Shown one piece after another: positions 21,641-29,737 of a stretch of 38,356 nt of DNA. This stretch comes from Desulfobacteraceae bacterium (GTDB lineage Bacteria > Desulfobacterota > Desulfobacteria > Desulfobacterales > JAABTS01). The notes under the pieces are model-generated. The model saw only the letters and a list, made by a program, of their open reading frames with translations. It made no database searches and was not told the origin of the DNA. A program made the position numbers and the translations under genes. Position 1 is the first letter of the stretch. Each line of letters opens with the position of its first letter. The DNA lies in NCBI GenBank assembly GCA_011389735.1, contig JAABTS010000040.1, positions 1 through 38,356 of the forward strand, written 5' to 3'.

Positions 21641-22549
21641 ATGAAGAAAAAATTGATGGTTCTGGTTTTAAGCATGGTTATGTTCGGCGTTTTCACTGGA
21701 AGCGGATTTGCGGGCGATTGTTCGACCAATTATCCGATTTTGCTGGTTCACGGAGTCGCGCTTGGGGACGACACTCTCGGTTTTGATTATTACGGACGGA
21801 TTCCGGGATATCTGAGATCATACGGCGCGATCGTCGAAGGCGGCGGCCAGGACGCCTGGTCTGACGGCGCGGACAACGCGGTTCAACTGAAACAAAAAAT
21901 CGAAGACGTGATGGACGCTTATGATGTTAACAAAGTCAATATCATCGCACATTCAAAGGGCGCCATCGACACCCGTTACATGTTTAAAAAATTCCCCTCA
22001 ATGAAGAATCATGTCGCTTCCTTTACCTCTGTTGCAAGCCCCCAGAAAGGCAGCGTTCTGGCGGACATCATACTGGGCGTGATGCCTGACTGGGCCGAAC
22101 CTTATATCGGCGGCATGTTGAATGTGATCGGATTGATCATCCAGGGCGATGAATCTCCTGACAGTCTGGCGGCCGGTTATCAACTGCTTCGATCCAGTAT
22201 GGCTGCTTTCAACGCTTCTTTCGGCGATTTGAATACAGGAATCGACGGAGTCTATTGTCAAAGTTATGCGGCGAAAATCAAGGGCGTTGTTCTGGACGGG
22301 GCGCTTCAGTCAACAGGCGTGGTCATGGCGATTGGCGGGGAGTCTCCGAATGACGGAGCGGTGTGGACGAACTCAGCGCCTTACGCCGAATTCAAGGGTG
22401 TAGAATCCGGCGCCTGGTGGTGCGGCGGCGTAACCCACTTCGGCATTGTAGACCGGGGCATCCTTGTTTTTCCGGGCTTCACGCCGGGTTTCGACGCACG
22501 TGAATTCTACCGGGGCGTTGTTCAGGATTTGAAAAACAGAGGTTTCTAA
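21641..22549 (+). CDS. Secreted triacylglycerol lipase
   Basis: A 302-residue exported hydrolase of triglycerides. A Sec signal peptide covers about residues 1-24 (AGDCSTN begins the mature form). The oxyanion region is LLVHGVALGDD. The nucleophile is S105 in AHSKG, a Gly-to-Ala variant of G-x-S-x-G. The other triad members are predicted as D238 (PNDGAV) and H266 (VTHFGIVD), as in family I lipases. It matches foldase-dependent lipases, and the foldase lies next to it. A GGAGAG sequence precedes the ATG. A strong terminator lies between it and the foldase. Confidence 0.92.
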   Translation: MKKKLMVLVLSMVMFGVFTGSGFAGDCSTNYPILLVHGVALGDDTLGFDYYGRIPGYLRSYGAIVEGGGQDAWSDGADNAVQLKQKIEDVMDAYDVNKVNIIAHSKGAIDTRYMFKKFPSMKNHVASFTSVASPQKGSVLADIILGVMPDWAEPYIGGMLNVIGLIIQGDESPDSLAAGYQLLRSSMAAFNASFGDLNTGIDGVYCQSYAAKIKGVVLDGALQSTGVVMAIGGESPNDGAVWTNSAPYAEFKGVESGAWWCGGVTHFGIVDRGILVFPGFTPGFDAREFYRGVVQDLKNRGF

Positions 22550-22635
22550 TCCGCGTATGTCGATGAAATCAATAAAGAACAGATTGTCGCTGAAGCTCTT
22601 TAATTTGGAATCAATCTGACCATGTATCCCGACCA

Positions 22636-22669
22636 AAAAACCGCGTTCCTCTCGAGGAGCGCGGTTTTT
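22636..22669 (+). terminator. Rho-independent terminator between lipase and foldase genes
   Basis: The arms AAAAACCGCGTTCCTC and GAGGAGCGCGGTTTTT form 16 pairs with one T-G wobble and almost no loop, ending in five T. It lies 86 bases after the lipase stop and 32 bases before the foldase ATG. The stem has T/A runs on both sides, so it could also work on the other strand. Confidence 0.85.
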
Positions 22670-22701
22670 CCGTTTCAAGGCAGATTTTACCGGAGGATCG
22701 A

Positions 22702-23688
22702 ATGAAAAACAAGCCCATTATCGCCGCGGTTATTGTATCGATAGTCATTCTTACCACCTGCTGGTTTTTACTTCGAGTCGATCGTTCGATGGATATCGAA
22801 ACCGTTACGGCCAAAACCGAGATCTCCGAACCGGCCGTTCAACGGCAGTCTCGATCGGAACAGCGGGATCGCAGTGTTTTCTCTGAAATGGAAGAACAGG
22901 AACCGGATGTATTCAAATCCGGTGATAAGCCGGCCGATACCCGCCTGATTCAAAAAATCACGGTGAATATCATCGATTCCGAACCGAATCCGGAAAATGA
23001 TACCGGATACACCGCGGAAACCGAATTCAAGGCTTATTTCAAGGATAGTATCGTGAATGAAAACACCGTCCGGGCGTTTAAAATTTTACAGTCAAGATTC
23101 AGTTCCAGCCTTGATTTGGAAAAACATTACGAGGATGTATATGAATATCTGAAAACACAGGTCAGCGCTGAAAAAGCTGCTGAAGCCGTTGAATTGTATA
23201 AAAAATTTACGGAATACGAAATGACTTTGACGGATCAGGCCCACCTCTGGAACCAGGAAAAGCCGATGAATTCGACGGAGGCGATCCAGTTTTTGGAGTC
23301 CGTGCAGAGACACCGGGAACAATTCTTCGGAAACGACGTGGCGGAGACGTTATGGGGCGATGAACTGACGGCTTATGAATATCAGCTTCGAAAGCACGCC
23401 GTTGTCAGCGATGAATATATGAACGGAGACGAAAAGGCCGCCCGGATCAAAGATCTGGAAAAGGAATTGTTCGGCGGCGACCCTGATGTATCAAGCAGTC
23501 CTTATTCCCGTTATCAGGAAACCCTTCAGTTGTACCGCAGGGACTTTGAACGGATGACGCCTCAGGAACAATACGATAAAGCGAAAGAGATCCGGCATGA
23601 GATATTTCCTCCGGACGCCGCCGCCAGAATGGACGAACGGGAAAAAGCGCGGCTTGCGGACGACGGGATTATCGTTCTTGATCAATAG
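22702..23688 (+). CDS. Lipase-specific foldase (Lif / lipase chaperone)
   Basis: A 328-residue inner-membrane-anchored periplasmic chaperone that folds the secreted lipase. One helix is at about residues 5-24, then a variable linker and a helical region. Diagnostic segments include QRHREQFFGNDVAETLWGDE and YQETLQLYRRDFERMTPQEQ. The usual RxxFDY motif is not clear; TEFKAYFKDSIV may stand in for it, so binding could differ from the Pseudomonas type. Size is in range. The gene follows the lipase in the same direction. Its stop TAG lies in the first bases of palindromic element I. Confidence 0.88.
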   Translation: MKNKPIIAAVIVSIVILTTCWFLLRVDRSMDIETVTAKTEISEPAVQRQSRSEQRDRSVFSEMEEQEPDVFKSGDKPADTRLIQKITVNIIDSEPNPENDTGYTAETEFKAYFKDSIVNENTVRAFKILQSRFSSSLDLEKHYEDVYEYLKTQVSAEKAAEAVELYKKFTEYEMTLTDQAHLWNQEKPMNSTEAIQFLESVQRHREQFFGNDVAETLWGDELTAYEYQLRKHAVVSDEYMNGDEKAARIKDLEKELFGGDPDVSSSPYSRYQETLQLYRRDFERMTPQEQYDKAKEIRHEIFPPDAAARMDEREKARLADDGIIVLDQ

Positions 23689-23951: not shown

Positions 23952-24776
23952 ATGATGGAGAATGTAAGAATACACGGCCGCCCGCCGTATCGCGCCGCGG
24001 TTCTTCATGGCGGCCCCGGCGCTCCCGGAGAAACCGGGCCGGTGGCGAAAGAGCTTTCAGTATCCCGAGGCGTACTGGAACCGTTGCAAACGGCCGGAAC
24101 AATCAAAGGCCAGATAAGGGAACTCAAGGCCGTTCTGGAAAACGCCGCACGGTTTCCGATCGTTCTTATAGGCTATTCCTGGGGCGCATTGCTCGGCTTT
24201 CTTTTTGCCGCGCATTATCCCGCGGATGTTCGAAAGTTGATACTTGTGAGTTGTCCTCCGTTTGAATCGAGTCATGCTGCTAACATCAATGAAACCCGTT
24301 TGAACCGTCTCAGCGGGCCCAAAAAAGCGGAAGCGGCGGGACTTCTCGAACAACTCGCCCGGCCTTCGGAACCAGCCGAATCCGATACATTCATGCGTTT
24401 GGCGGAATTATGCGGCGAAGCGGACGCCTTTGATCCCATCGAAACCAATTCCTGTATTATCGATTATCAAATCGGCGTATTCCATTCGATTTGGAAAGAA
24501 GCAGAGGCCCTGCGCCGTTCCGGGAAACTTTTGTCCTTCGGCGACCGTATCGCCTGTCCGGTTACCGCCGTTCATGGAGTGTATGACCCGCATCCGGCCG
24601 AAGGGGTTGAAATTTCCTTGTCAAGAAAAATAGAAAGGTTTCGAATGATTCGACTTGAAAAATGCGGTCATAAGCCCTGGATCGAAAAACATGCCGGAGA
24701 TGATTTTTACCGGGTTTTAAACGATGAATTGCGGGAGGATTCCGAAACCCTGCATGGATTTGAGATGCGATCATGA
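23952..24776 (+). CDS. Alpha/beta hydrolase coupled to the ATPase-phosphatase fusion
   Basis: A 274-residue cytoplasmic alpha/beta hydrolase. LHGGPGAPGET is the oxyanion loop, S76 in GYSWGA the nucleophile, D212 in HGVYDPHP the acid and H240 in CGHKPW the base, so the triad is complete. The HGGPG form resembles prolyl aminopeptidases and similar hydrolases; substrate is unknown. It has no signal peptide. Its last bases overlap the start of the 1654-residue gene (ATGA), so the two proteins are likely made together. The reading of the pair as one system is an inference from this overlap. Confidence 0.85.
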   Translation: MMENVRIHGRPPYRAAVLHGGPGAPGETGPVAKELSVSRGVLEPLQTAGTIKGQIRELKAVLENAARFPIVLIGYSWGALLGFLFAAHYPADVRKLILVSCPPFESSHAANINETRLNRLSGPKKAEAAGLLEQLARPSEPAESDTFMRLAELCGEADAFDPIETNSCIIDYQIGVFHSIWKEAEALRRSGKLLSFGDRIACPVTAVHGVYDPHPAEGVEISLSRKIERFRMIRLEKCGHKPWIEKHAGDDFYRVLNDELREDSETLHGFEMRS

Positions 24777-27700
24777 AAGCGGATTTGAAAATAGGTGATT
24801 TGATCGAGGTTCCTCCGGTCAAGACCGTTATCCGTCTGGAAGACGGGGTAGAACGTTCCGAATCCATTATCGACGGATTCGTGGTCACGGCGGATGTAGA
24901 TTCCCATTTAACGGTAATTTCCGAGTCCATAGCGCAAAACCGGGGGCGCGGTTATTTTCTTCAGGGCGATTTCGGATCGGGCAAATCTCATTTTCTGGCC
25001 GCATTACATGCATGGATCGAAAGATATCCCGGCCATGACCTGCTGACGGATCGGCACGGCGGATTGAAACGTCTCGCTGGAATGAATCCGAACATTCTGG
25101 CGGTGTCGATTTCCCTGGTTAATTACCGTGCCGCGGCGTCGTTCGAACAGATCGTTATAGAGGCGCTGGAATCGGCGCTGGCGAATAAAGGGGTTCAGGT
25201 AAAACTGACGCCGCAATCGCGGTTTTTGGACAATCTCGCCGTTTTGATCAAAGATCCCGACACTGCGGCGGAATTCGCGGTTCAGGCCGGGATACCGGTT
25301 TCCGGAATCCATTCCTTTCTGATGGAAGATCCCGGTCGGGCGTATATTCTGGGACTCCAGCTATACAAGCGTTTAGGGATTGAACGACCGGAATCCATGG
25401 CAGGCGATCGGTCGGACATGTTCAGGCGAGCCTTCGATGCAGTTCTAAAAGCCGGTTTTAAAGGCGTGTTGATTATTATCGACGAGCTTTCGGAATTTTT
25501 CCGTTCCAAGCCCGATGCGCGGTCTCTGAACGAAGACGCCCGCACCCTTCAATTACTCGGGGAACTGGCCGGCGAAAATCCTATCTGGATTATCGCCGCG
25601 CTTCAGGAAAGCATCGAACGCACCGGCGATATATCCCAGGTGACGTTTCGGAAAATCAAGGACCGGTTTCCGGTCAAACTGAGTTTGACGACCATCCATA
25701 TCAAAGCGCTTTTGTCCGGCCGTTTGGTTCGCCGGAAGCCCGGCGCCGAAAAAGCGCTTGAAGATGTCCACCGGTATTTGAAACGTCACTTTTCAACGTT
25801 TAATGAATCGTTCTCCGATTTTTTGGCCGTGTATCCTGTTCATCCTGTGACAATCGCCTTGCTGGACGGACTGGGAGATCTGTTTTCAGAGCATCGAGGG
25901 ATCGTGGATTTCGTTCATTCGCGTATCGCGGGGAATCCGGATCGGCGTATCCCGGGAATTTTGGATCGGCCGGCCTATGAATTGCTGGCTCCCGACAGCA
26001 TTTATGATCATTTTGCTCAGCGCATGGCCGAATTTTCCGCCTTCAATGTTTATCCTCGCCACATTATGCCTCATTTTCAAGCGGTGATCGGCCGAACGAT
26101 TGAAAATCCGGACGACCGAAGGACAGCGGAACGGATTATCAAGATCCTGATGCTTCACGCCATACATCCCACAGCGGATTTTCCGACGGTGCGGCAGGCG
26201 GCCGAATGGTCGGCTTGCGCGGTCTGGGAACATGATCCCGCCATGAACGTGCAATTCGCCGCGGAAGTACTGCTCGATCCCCTGGTCGATCAGAGCCGGT
26301 TTCTGATAAAACGCAAAGCCGATAATCCTCTGGATACGGTGTATGAAATCATCACTCGGGAAAATCCGTTAAAGAACTTAAAGGCGCGTATCGACAGGCG
26401 AATGTCCGAAATACCGGAGGACGACACCCGTCTGTTGCTGTTTCCGCTCACAATTACCGAAGAATCGGCGGCCTGGCCGGGAAGGGAAATGTTTGACGAA
26501 GGCGCGCCGCGCATGATCACCTGGCGGCGCACCACTCGCAAAGCATGGGTGGTTTTTGTATCCCCGGAGAGAACATCGGAAATCGAATCCATGCTGGATG
26601 AAAAAATCGAAACGGGAGTTGTCGATTTTGCAATGGCCGTATGTATCGGCGAAACGGCGATAGCGTCGAAATATACCGCGGTCTGGCGGATCAACCTGCC
26701 GTCCGACGACAGGGCGTCTTATACATTACGCGAATTTTTAGCGGCCCGGTTTGTTTACAAGGGGCTTGATCCGGGAAATCCGGCGGATACGAATCTGATG
26801 GAGCCGGTTCAAGAAATGATCGATAAATCGGCGCCCGGAGCCCGCCAGACCGCCCTGGACTTGTTTTACGCCGGAAAATTCGATAATCCTTCGGTTCCTT
26901 ATGACCGGACGATCCAGCGCCTGAAACGGTTTGACCGTTTGGTGGAATGGGCCGGGGAAGCGCTCCTGGAAAACCGCTATTCCGCATTCCGGGACATTGA
27001 ACCCAAAAAGGTTTCACCTTCGCCGATGCTCTATAAACGGATCATTGAAGAATTTATCGCGCCGGGAAGTATTTCGATCCGGAAAGCCGGAACTACAGGC
27101 GTTATCGACGCCATCGACGGGCTGGCCGCGCCGCTTGGCCTGGTGGAATTAAAATCCGGAACTTACGTATCCGCGCCGGATCCGGACAGGCATCCGCTTA
27201 TCGCCGCGGTGTTCGGGATGATGAACGCCGCCCGGAAAACGCCGGTGAGCCGTGTCTTGAAATCTCTTCAGACTGGACGGTTCGGGCTTCCCGCCGACAC
27301 AGCCAAATTTCTTCTTACCGCTCTCGCTTACAGCGGCCTGATTATGGTCATTCGATCCGGCCGGCCGGTTCCCGCCGATCAGCTCGACATGCTCCGGATC
27401 GATACCGCGGACGATATCGCGCCGGGCGGAATCATCGGCAAACAAGACCGGGACGCCCTGCAGAATGAATGTTATTTTCTTGCTCCGGCCGGCGGATGGA
27501 CTTCGTTCGGACTTAAACAACAGCGGGACGCATGGCGTAATGTCATTAGCTTCAGTAAATGGGCCGAAAAAACCGCCGAATTGAAATCCCGAATACGTCA
27601 ATATGTTGAATACTCCGCTTTTTCGGAATTCGATTTTGATGAATTGATTCGTAAAATCGATGGGTTCGTTTTGCTTGGAGCCGCTGTTGACCCGTCTTTG

Positions 27701-29737
27701 CAGGCCGGCGAAGGCCTGGAGCGGTTTTTGGACGCCTGGCGCCGGTCCGAACTGTGTGCTGACGATATCGAGCGAATCAAAACAGCCGAACTTTTTTTTA
27801 CCCGGTTTGCCGAACAATTCACGTTCATCAGCCATTATGCGCGACACGACGCGGTGGTCGAAGCCGCGGAACGAAACGAACTCATCGGAAACCAGGCCGG
27901 AAAGCTCAAAGAGGCTCTAAATGATAACGGACTGATAATATCAAAAGACCGGATGCGCCGGCTGAACGATCTGTTTGATTCGTTCAAGGCCGAATATACT
28001 GCTTTTTACAAAGAACGACATGATGCATGGTATCGAAAAACGTATGAAAAACCACTGTCTGATTATTCAAAACGGGCGCTGATGCTGCTCAAAAGACTTT
28101 CCGCCATTGACGCCCTGGACCGGCCTGAGAGCCTGGAAACGCTTTTGAACGCCTTTGATTCAAGGCGCACAATGTGCTGCCGGCGCAATCCGGATGAAGA
28201 ACTGATTCGTTCCCCCATTTGCGGATGCGGGTTTATGCCGGGTAAAGCACCTTTACAACAGCCTTTTGACGAAGATCCGGAAACCGCGTTGGAAAAAATG
28301 CTCGAACAATATCTAAGCATTCTGAAATCCCCGAAAATCCTGGAAGCCTTTGCGGCCAGGGGATTTGCACTGAAAGACGCACGCCCTGACGTGGCGGATC
28401 GTCTTCGGCGGCTGTCTGCGTCACTCCGAAGTGAAACGCCGTCAACCGTCGTACTGATGGATCTTTTCGACACCGGTTTGGCTCAGGAAATCAGCGGGGC
28501 CTTGTCTGGTCGAATTTCCATTGAAAAGCGAAGCATCACGGATCTGGTTCGTCATTTGAGCGGCAGGCGGCTGGCGTCCTATCAAATCATGGATACGGTA
28601 AAATCCTGGATTTCAGAGGCCGGCGAAGACAGCGTTATCGCTATCGATCAGAATTTAAAGTCTGACGGAAGAGAGTCCATTGACGACTTTTTCTGGTGGC
28701 CCTTGCTTCATGGCCGTCTGCTGGATCAACATATAGACAAGGCGTCGCTGGAAAAAAACATTCGCAGAACGGAAACAGCGCTTGAACGTTCCTATCCGTC
28801 GGCGGAATTGTATAAAAGCTTTGCCTGTTCGGATACAATGACTCTCTTGCAGTTTGTGGCGGAGGAACGTTTTCATATGCAGGCGCTTCGGATAGCCTGG
28901 CTGATTCTCGCTGAAAGAATCGTATCCGGAGAACAATGGCCCAAAGACGGCGATACGCTCTTATCCCTTTATGGGATCAGGGAAACGGCCGATAAAATTT
29001 CAGCCCGGCTCAAAAATTTGAAAGAATTGCCGGAAATAAAACGGGCTCCATTTCCGGATCGTCTCAGAGCAAGAATTCCCCTGTCGGAAATCGTGGTCGA
29101 TCCCTGGGTGTCGAAAGATCTTCGATCCTATGTGTTTAACGCTATTCGAGATATTGAAAAGCAGGGCGATGAATGGCTCTCGGCGACTCCGTCCCGGGGC
29201 CGGTTGCCCCTGTCCGACAACCCTGTCGTCATGATCTTGGACGGTGTTTCACCTGATGTCTGGATCGATGCGTATCGCCGGTTGGAAGAACGGTTCGGAA
29301 GTTTCGAATGGGCCTGGCGAAAGATCGACACCGGATCCTCTACTGTCGATTCCATGTCGGAAATGTTCGGTGTCGCCAAAGATCCTATGGACGCCTTTGT
29401 AGAATCCGGAATCGACTATTACCAGGTTAAAGGGTCTGAATCCCAAAGAGTCATTGATCTGTTCCCCGAGATTAAAGAAGACCGGCCCACGGTTATTCGA
29501 GTCGCGCTTATCGATGACGGCGCTCATCGTTCTTTTTTGCGGCTGGCGCAAATGCCCGAATCGGTTTTCCGGTTTTTAAATCAGGCGTTGAATGATTTCC
29601 TGGATATTTGCAGGCGCGGAAAAAAAACTTTCATCCTGACGACGGATCACGGACTTTCGCTTACGCCGTCGGGATTATCTCATGGTAAAGGAGGCGTTTA
29701 CGAAAAAACAGTGTTTCTGGTGAAAATAAGCGTTTAA
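24773..29737 (+). CDS. BrxC/PglY-like ATPase fused to a PglZ-like phosphatase domain
   Basis: A 1654-residue soluble protein. The N-terminal AAA-type ATPase has Walker A G65DFGSGKSH73, Walker B LIIIDELSEF with D237-E238, a sensor-like IIAALQES (about 273-280), and YPVHPVT (354-360), the layout of BREX BrxC/PglY. C1135-C1136 and C1150-G-C1152 could bind zinc. The C-terminal part has the metal ligands of an alkaline-phosphatase fold: D1490 (MILDGVSPD), a Ser/Thr nucleophile around S1522-T1524, D1581-x3-H1585, D1625-H1626 (TTDHG), and H1637. That matches PglZ. In BREX these are separate proteins. No PglX, BrxA, BrxB or BrxL gene is here. It overlaps the hydrolase by four bases. The domain calls rest on motifs only. 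Confidence 0.8.
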   Translation: MKADLKIGDLIEVPPVKTVIRLEDGVERSESIIDGFVVTADVDSHLTVISESIAQNRGRGYFLQGDFGSGKSHFLAALHAWIERYPGHDLLTDRHGGLKRLAGMNPNILAVSISLVNYRAAASFEQIVIEALESALANKGVQVKLTPQSRFLDNLAVLIKDPDTAAEFAVQAGIPVSGIHSFLMEDPGRAYILGLQLYKRLGIERPESMAGDRSDMFRRAFDAVLKAGFKGVLIIIDELSEFFRSKPDARSLNEDARTLQLLGELAGENPIWIIAALQESIERTGDISQVTFRKIKDRFPVKLSLTTIHIKALLSGRLVRRKPGAEKALEDVHRYLKRHFSTFNESFSDFLAVYPVHPVTIALLDGLGDLFSEHRGIVDFVHSRIAGNPDRRIPGILDRPAYELLAPDSIYDHFAQRMAEFSAFNVYPRHIMPHFQAVIGRTIENPDDRRTAERIIKILMLHAIHPTADFPTVRQAAEWSACAVWEHDPAMNVQFAAEVLLDPLVDQSRFLIKRKADNPLDTVYEIITRENPLKNLKARIDRRMSEIPEDDTRLLLFPLTITEESAAWPGREMFDEGAPRMITWRRTTRKAWVVFVSPERTSEIESMLDEKIETGVVDFAMAVCIGETAIASKYTAVWRINLPSDDRASYTLREFLAARFVYKGLDPGNPADTNLMEPVQEMIDKSAPGARQTALDLFYAGKFDNPSVPYDRTIQRLKRFDRLVEWAGEALLENRYSAFRDIEPKKVSPSPMLYKRIIEEFIAPGSISIRKAGTTGVIDAIDGLAAPLGLVELKSGTYVSAPDPDRHPLIAAVFGMMNAARKTPVSRVLKSLQTGRFGLPADTAKFLLTALAYSGLIMVIRSGRPVPADQLDMLRIDTADDIAPGGIIGKQDRDALQNECYFLAPAGGWTSFGLKQQRDAWRNVISFSKWAEKTAELKSRIRQYVEYSAFSEFDFDELIRKIDGFVLLGAAVDPSLQAGEGLERFLDAWRRSELCADDIERIKTAELFFTRFAEQFTFISHYARHDAVVEAAERNELIGNQAGKLKEALNDNGLIISKDRMRRLNDLFDSFKAEYTAFYKERHDAWYRKTYEKPLSDYSKRALMLLKRLSAIDALDRPESLETLLNAFDSRRTMCCRRNPDEELIRSPICGCGFMPGKAPLQQPFDEDPETALEKMLEQYLSILKSPKILEAFAARGFALKDARPDVADRLRRLSASLRSETPSTVVLMDLFDTGLAQEISGALSGRISIEKRSITDLVRHLSGRRLASYQIMDTVKSWISEAGEDSVIAIDQNLKSDGRESIDDFFWWPLLHGRLLDQHIDKASLEKNIRRTETALERSYPSAELYKSFACSDTMTLLQFVAEERFHMQALRIAWLILAERIVSGEQWPKDGDTLLSLYGIRETADKISARLKNLKELPEIKRAPFPDRLRARIPLSEIVVDPWVSKDLRSYVFNAIRDIEKQGDEWLSATPSRGRLPLSDNPVVMILDGVSPDVWIDAYRRLEERFGSFEWAWRKIDTGSSTVDSMSEMFGVAKDPMDAFVESGIDYYQVKGSESQRVIDLFPEIKEDRPTVIRVALIDDGAHRSFLRLAQMPESVFRFLNQALNDFLDICRRGKKTFILTTDHGLSLTPSGLSHGKGGVYEKTVFLVKISV

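Follow-up and report, generated by a model that had tools for sequence, protein, structure and literature searches.

According to the available text of a survey of BREX diversity, the ATPase BrxC and PglZ are separate proteins; that text, as far as it goes, mentions no fusion of the two, no TPR partner and no RecQ (PMC12839542). Likewise, no published account of a BrxC-PglZ fusion was found in the open-licence literature, including searches for DUF6079, PglZ with TPR, PglZ with RecQ and BrxC with TPR. The "BrxC-BrxB fusion" deposited as PDB 9zn5 is an engineered construct and was discarded as a natural example (PMC13326643). A PglZ domain is also present in PorX, where it cleaves cyclic and linear oligonucleotides according to the available parts of two sources (PMC12839542, PMC12205998). 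The nucleophile is a threonine, T272 in PorX and T538 in Escherichia fergusonii PglZ (PMC12205998). The DNA analysed here, referred to as the window, is a contig of 38,356 nucleotides from a Desulfobacteraceae bacterium (JAABTS010000040.1). It encodes one chain in which predicted structures place a BrxC-type AAA+ ATPase ahead of a PglZ-type active site.

The fusion gene occupies positions 24773..29737 of the forward strand and consists of a single open reading frame of 1654 amino acids with an ATG start and zero internal stops. Structure models of residues 1–1106 and 1080–1654 both reached a pLDDT of 86. In the first, residues 1–528 (24773..26356, +) are predicted to form a BrxC-type, ORC/Cdc6-like AAA+ ATPase with a winged-helix region. 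The best matches of this model are the BrxC structures 9zdx and 9zll (Z 20.3 and 20.2 over 469 and 463 residues), while ORC/Cdc6 proteins rank behind them (Z 15.2 and lower). In the second, residues 1294–1654 (28652..29734, +) are modelled as a helical linker followed by a PglZ catalytic domain with its core at about 1481–1654. Here, PorX ranks first (Z 15.1 over 250 residues), followed by BREX PglZ (Z 13.7 over 333 residues) and then by other enzymes of the alkaline phosphatase superfamily (Z about 10–11). The single-chain arrangement had first been proposed in a sequence-only reading of the window, which was prepared to abandon it if the C-terminus matched neither PglZ nor another alkaline phosphatase; both halves of that proposal now have structural counterparts.

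Profile searches capture only part of this architecture. The N-terminal half matches Pfam DUF6079 (E 8e-33, 113.5 bits against a cut-off of 23, best stretch residues 230–463) and the PADLOC BrxC model (E 1.3e-25), and the NCBIfam equivalog cut-offs are missed by far (72.8 of 400 bits for BREX_BrxC, 25 of 1700 bits for PglY). The PglZ domain of the window protein is called by neither Pfam nor PADLOC, and among 27 relatives only two give weak PglZ matches (Pfam 0.011, PADLOC 1e-4). Structure and conservation are therefore needed to recognize it, as Pfam and PADLOC on their own miss the domain.

To assess residue conservation, 37 full-length relatives belonging to several phyla were aligned. The Walker A motif GDFGSGKSH (residues 65–73, 24965..24991, +), in which G65, G68, G70, K71, S72 and H73 are identical in 37/37 sequences, and the equally invariant Walker B pair D237-E238 (25481..25486, +; 37/37) lie in the translated frame exactly where the sequence-only reading had located them. 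The motif YPVHPVT, which it had assigned to the N-terminus, is present as well, with Y354, P355, H357 and P358 identical in 37/37, but falls at residues 354–360 (25832..25852, +), inside the ATPase region. At the other end of the protein, the six proposed phosphatase ligands D1490, D1581, H1585, D1625, H1626 and H1637 are all in place, and the list lacked only the likely nucleophile T1524. All seven residues (29240..29683, +) are invariant (37/37) and occur in the order D, T, D-x3-H, D-H, H of the PglZ/PorX branch of the alkaline phosphatase superfamily, so that T1524 takes the position of the catalytic threonine of PorX (T272) and PglZ (T538). As none of the aligned full-length relatives departs from the Walker, YPxHP and phosphatase-type residues, chance is ruled out as their origin. 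Furthermore, three cysteines in the middle of the fusion, C1136, C1150 and C1152 (28178..28228, +), are identical in 37/37 and could possibly constitute a zinc-binding hook or hinge. The PglZ core is short: 113 residues lead from the threonine to the last histidine, against 228 for PorX and 203 for the PglZ of E. fergusonii according to their published residue numbers. Its substrate could consequently differ.

Full-length fusions fall into two groups. Group A, to which the window protein belongs, comprises proteins of mostly 1600–1720 amino acids in Desulfobacterota (44–50% identity) and in Spirochaetota, Fibrobacterota and Verrucomicrobia/Lentisphaerae (about 40% identity). Group B consists of more distant fusions of about 25% identity and mostly 1650–1770 amino acids, with an unchanged domain order. 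Counting both groups, 17 of the 291 genomes of the host's order carry a fusion.

Upstream sequence could be read at 34 group-A loci. In 32 of these, a gene for a TPR-repeat protein of about 320 amino acids lies directly upstream on the same strand, often overlapping the fusion gene by 4 bases. Only the window and locus L045 depart from this arrangement, and both genomes carry the TPR gene elsewhere: the former on another contig (G000:C149:18614-19573, E 3.2e-112; L077 9615-10823), the latter at G291:C54 (E 2.7e-125). In the window genome, binning contamination was rejected as the source of the separate TPR contig, since the tetranucleotide profile of this contig correlates with that of the window at 0.974. 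At a threshold of E 1e-40 or better, the TPR family was detected in 11 of the 291 genomes of the host's order, all 11 being carriers of a group-A fusion (Fisher 4.6e-19). As most TPR and fusion genes adjoin, co-occurrence is better judged from the window and L045. In group B, the TPR gene precedes the fusion in 11 of 14 loci and was not found beside the fusions of L155, L158 and L160. The two genes also decay together: positions 9930-11336 of L095 (G201:C145) hold a remnant in which the N-terminus of the TPR protein is joined to fragments of the fusion, downstream of an intact RNase D gene. The loss of the pair in this relative indicates that it is dispensable. Gene pairing of this kind suggests that the two proteins may interact.

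In the window itself, the position of the TPR gene is taken by an alpha/beta hydrolase gene (274 amino acids; 23952..24776, +), which shares a 4-base ATGA overlap with the start of the fusion. It is not conserved at this position in relatives and therefore probably stands outside the system. Further upstream lie lipase-like and signalling genes, among them, at 21641-23688, an LCAT/lipase-like gene and, after it, one resembling a lipase chaperone. No helicase gene was found near the window fusion; elsewhere the type of helicase varies by lineage. RecD2, identified by Pfam, directly follows the fusion in seven Spirochaetota loci, a SNF2-type helicase gene precedes the TPR gene in three loci (L046, L056, L072), and in six group-B loci (L025, L079, L080, L081, L154, L156) a RecQ gene separates the TPR gene from the fusion. 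RNase D is encoded upstream in eight Desulfobacterota loci, some genomes being counted twice. Given the co-occurring TPR partner, which is separated from the fusion in the window genome, and the helicase neighbours in several lineages, the suggestion that the fusion works as a stand-alone protein is not upheld.

Other parts of BREX are missing from these surroundings, as had been claimed from the sequence. No BREX gene, including a methyltransferase, BrxA, BrxB and BrxL, was found beside the fusion among the window proteins scanned. Among 86 non-helicase neighbours of the relatives, there were zero matches to BrxA, BrxB, BrxL, PglX or PglZ at E 1e-10, a cut-off that highly diverged forms could escape. 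Type II methyltransferase models match one of these 86 neighbours, and no defence family recurs among the 86. A methyltransferase is thus not recurrent near the relatives, and none was found adjacent to the window fusion. PADLOC mad2 matches on three window genes look like generic methyltransferase similarity, one of the genes resembling a cyclopropane-fatty-acyl methyltransferase, and were not taken as defence genes. The window genome encodes other BrxC-like ATPases on other contigs. Of 23 fusion-bearing genomes tested, 5 also encode a full-length canonical BrxC; the window genome is one of them, with the gene on a 4.8-kb contig (G000:C256, L099).

On balance, these features incline us to regard the fusion as a resident, chromosomal and modification-independent DNA-processing enzyme, namely an ATP-driven nuclease that loads on DNA. 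By analogy with BrxC (PMC13326643), the AAA+ ATPase and its winged-helix region would load on DNA in an ATP-dependent manner. The PglZ domain, tethered in cis, would then work as a phosphodiesterase or nuclease with two metals and would nick or cut the nucleic acid so engaged, as its counterpart in BREX suggests (PMC12205998). The TPR protein, whose gene usually shares an operon with the fusion, may serve as an adaptor or regulator, and the helicase, whether RecQ, RecD2 or SNF2, could feed or unwind the substrate. Since no DNA-marking enzyme is encoded with the fusion, its target would have to be selected by the structure or state of the DNA (stalled, recombining, foreign or replicating) and not by a missing methyl mark.

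For the biological role, phage defence and chromosome maintenance carry similar weight. It is conceivable, if rather less than likely, that the fusion and the TPR protein form an anti-phage system of their own, sensing invading DNA and cleaving it or killing the cell in the manner of a minimal BREX-like system without self-marking. Both domains are BREX core components, the spread is patchy (17/291 genomes, group B included), and the relative G201 lost the TPR gene and the fusion together while retaining RNase D. TPR proteins and helicases as companions are reminiscent of other defence systems. The sequence-only reading had offered a defence or regulatory module, of which phage defence survives as possible and the stand-alone character, given the co-occurring TPR partner, does not. 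A defensive role sits less well with the lack of a recurrent defence family among the 86 neighbours and with the inheritance of the gene. In a tree built from 27 fusions, the sequences group by phylum with five changes, which is the minimum possible, and none of 200 shuffles came out as low; the Desulfobacterota group has a support value of only 75. The control, canonical DUF6079 BrxC taken from the same three phyla, requires six changes against a minimum of two, and 25 of 200 shuffles need no more than these six. As the gene tree follows the phyla, the fusion appears to be inherited vertically, whereas canonical BrxC is thoroughly mixed among them. Furthermore, full-length relatives are absent from 72,556 plasmids and 50,697 phages, and one scan of IMG/VR viral contigs with two peptide patterns revealed no relative. 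The phylum-wise tree and this absence are not what a mobile defence system would be expected to show.

Two matches on mobile elements deserve mention. The unannotated phage record MT835493.1 from human faecal samples contains a stretch (26057-27430, minus strand) with a weak match of 23% to the ATPase region of the fusion. A match on an archaeal plasmid (H1, Halorarius; L097, NZ_CP101162.1) was rejected as a fusion, the PglZ being separate; the locus is BREX-like, with BrxA, a BrxC-like protein, PglZ and a DNA methyltransferase each encoded by its own gene.

Vertical inheritance would fit a chromosome-maintenance factor, in which an ORC-like loader and a nuclease would cooperate with RecQ- or RecD2-type helicases in replication restart, recombination or repair. 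The RecQ, RecD2 and RNase D neighbours and the ordinary chromosomal contexts point the same way. This proposal can be advanced only tentatively, as the gene is patchy and dispensable, being absent from most genomes of the host's order and decayed in one relative. A signalling enzyme, in which PglZ degrades oligonucleotide messengers as in PorX, with the ATPase and the TPR protein as its gate, is improbable. PorX is indeed the closest solved fold to the C-terminal part, and TPR proteins are often adaptors or sensors, but the BrxC-type DNA-loading region and the DNA-helicase neighbours suggest DNA as the substrate, and a messenger synthase was not noticed nearby. Finally, an assembly or frame error joining two genes, which the sequence-only reading had itself named as a danger, can for practical purposes be dismissed, because single frames of the same length recur in many independent genomes of several phyla, including that of the group-B fusion L161, which consists of a single contig of 2.54 Mb.

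Extending the preferred reading of a resident DNA-processing enzyme, one may speculate that BrxC and PglZ form an ancient, vertically inherited single-chain machine that is paired with a TPR protein and with DNA helicases able to replace one another, and that surveys or maintains the genome without marking DNA. If this were true, BREX defence and the single-chain machine would represent the mobile and the resident branch of a common toolkit, and a resident DNA-processing enzyme would suggest a cellular relative of the phage-defence core. The natural single chain with one partner also cuts the problem of how BrxC and PglZ cooperate in BREX down to two or three genes, and it poses directly the question of whether DNA methylation must protect a host from the BrxC and PglZ domains.

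Among known systems, the SspC and Mads mad8 ATPases show weak local similarity to the ATPase region of the fusion; to our knowledge, these proteins have no PglZ domain, and their partners differ from those of the fusion. BR type 3 and BRC, as described in the available text of the survey, resemble the fusion in that a BrxC-like ATPase and PglZ occur together away from classical BREX; BR type 3 also has a helicase. There, the ATPase and PglZ are encoded by separate genes, accompanied by a methyltransferase and a helicase in BR type 3 and by a HerA translocase in BRC, and a TPR protein is not mentioned in that text (PMC12839542), whereas in the window PglZ is fused, and no methyltransferase recurs near the relatives. 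The PglZ domain of PorX (7pvk, 8thp) provides the best structural match, with a threonine nucleophile and a two-metal site in common, but the fusion has a BrxC-type ATPase in place of the CheY receiver and no link to type IX secretion. Measured against a BREX system, the fusion contributes a BrxC/PglY-type ATPase, while a separate PglZ protein, the PglX/BrxX methyltransferase (or PT-modification genes) and BrxA, BrxB and BrxL are lacking at the scanned loci. With BREX BrxC/PglY (DUF6079; 9zdx, 9zll) it shares the ORC/Cdc6-like AAA+ ATPase, the winged-helix region that follows and the Walker motifs; it is about 400 amino acids longer, ends in PglZ and stands outside a BREX operon. With BREX PglZ (9zn5, 9nv3) it shares the helical linker, the catalytic domain and the order of the active-site residues, but it shows no evident N-terminal domain for binding BrxB, and its catalytic core is shorter and joined to the ATPase.
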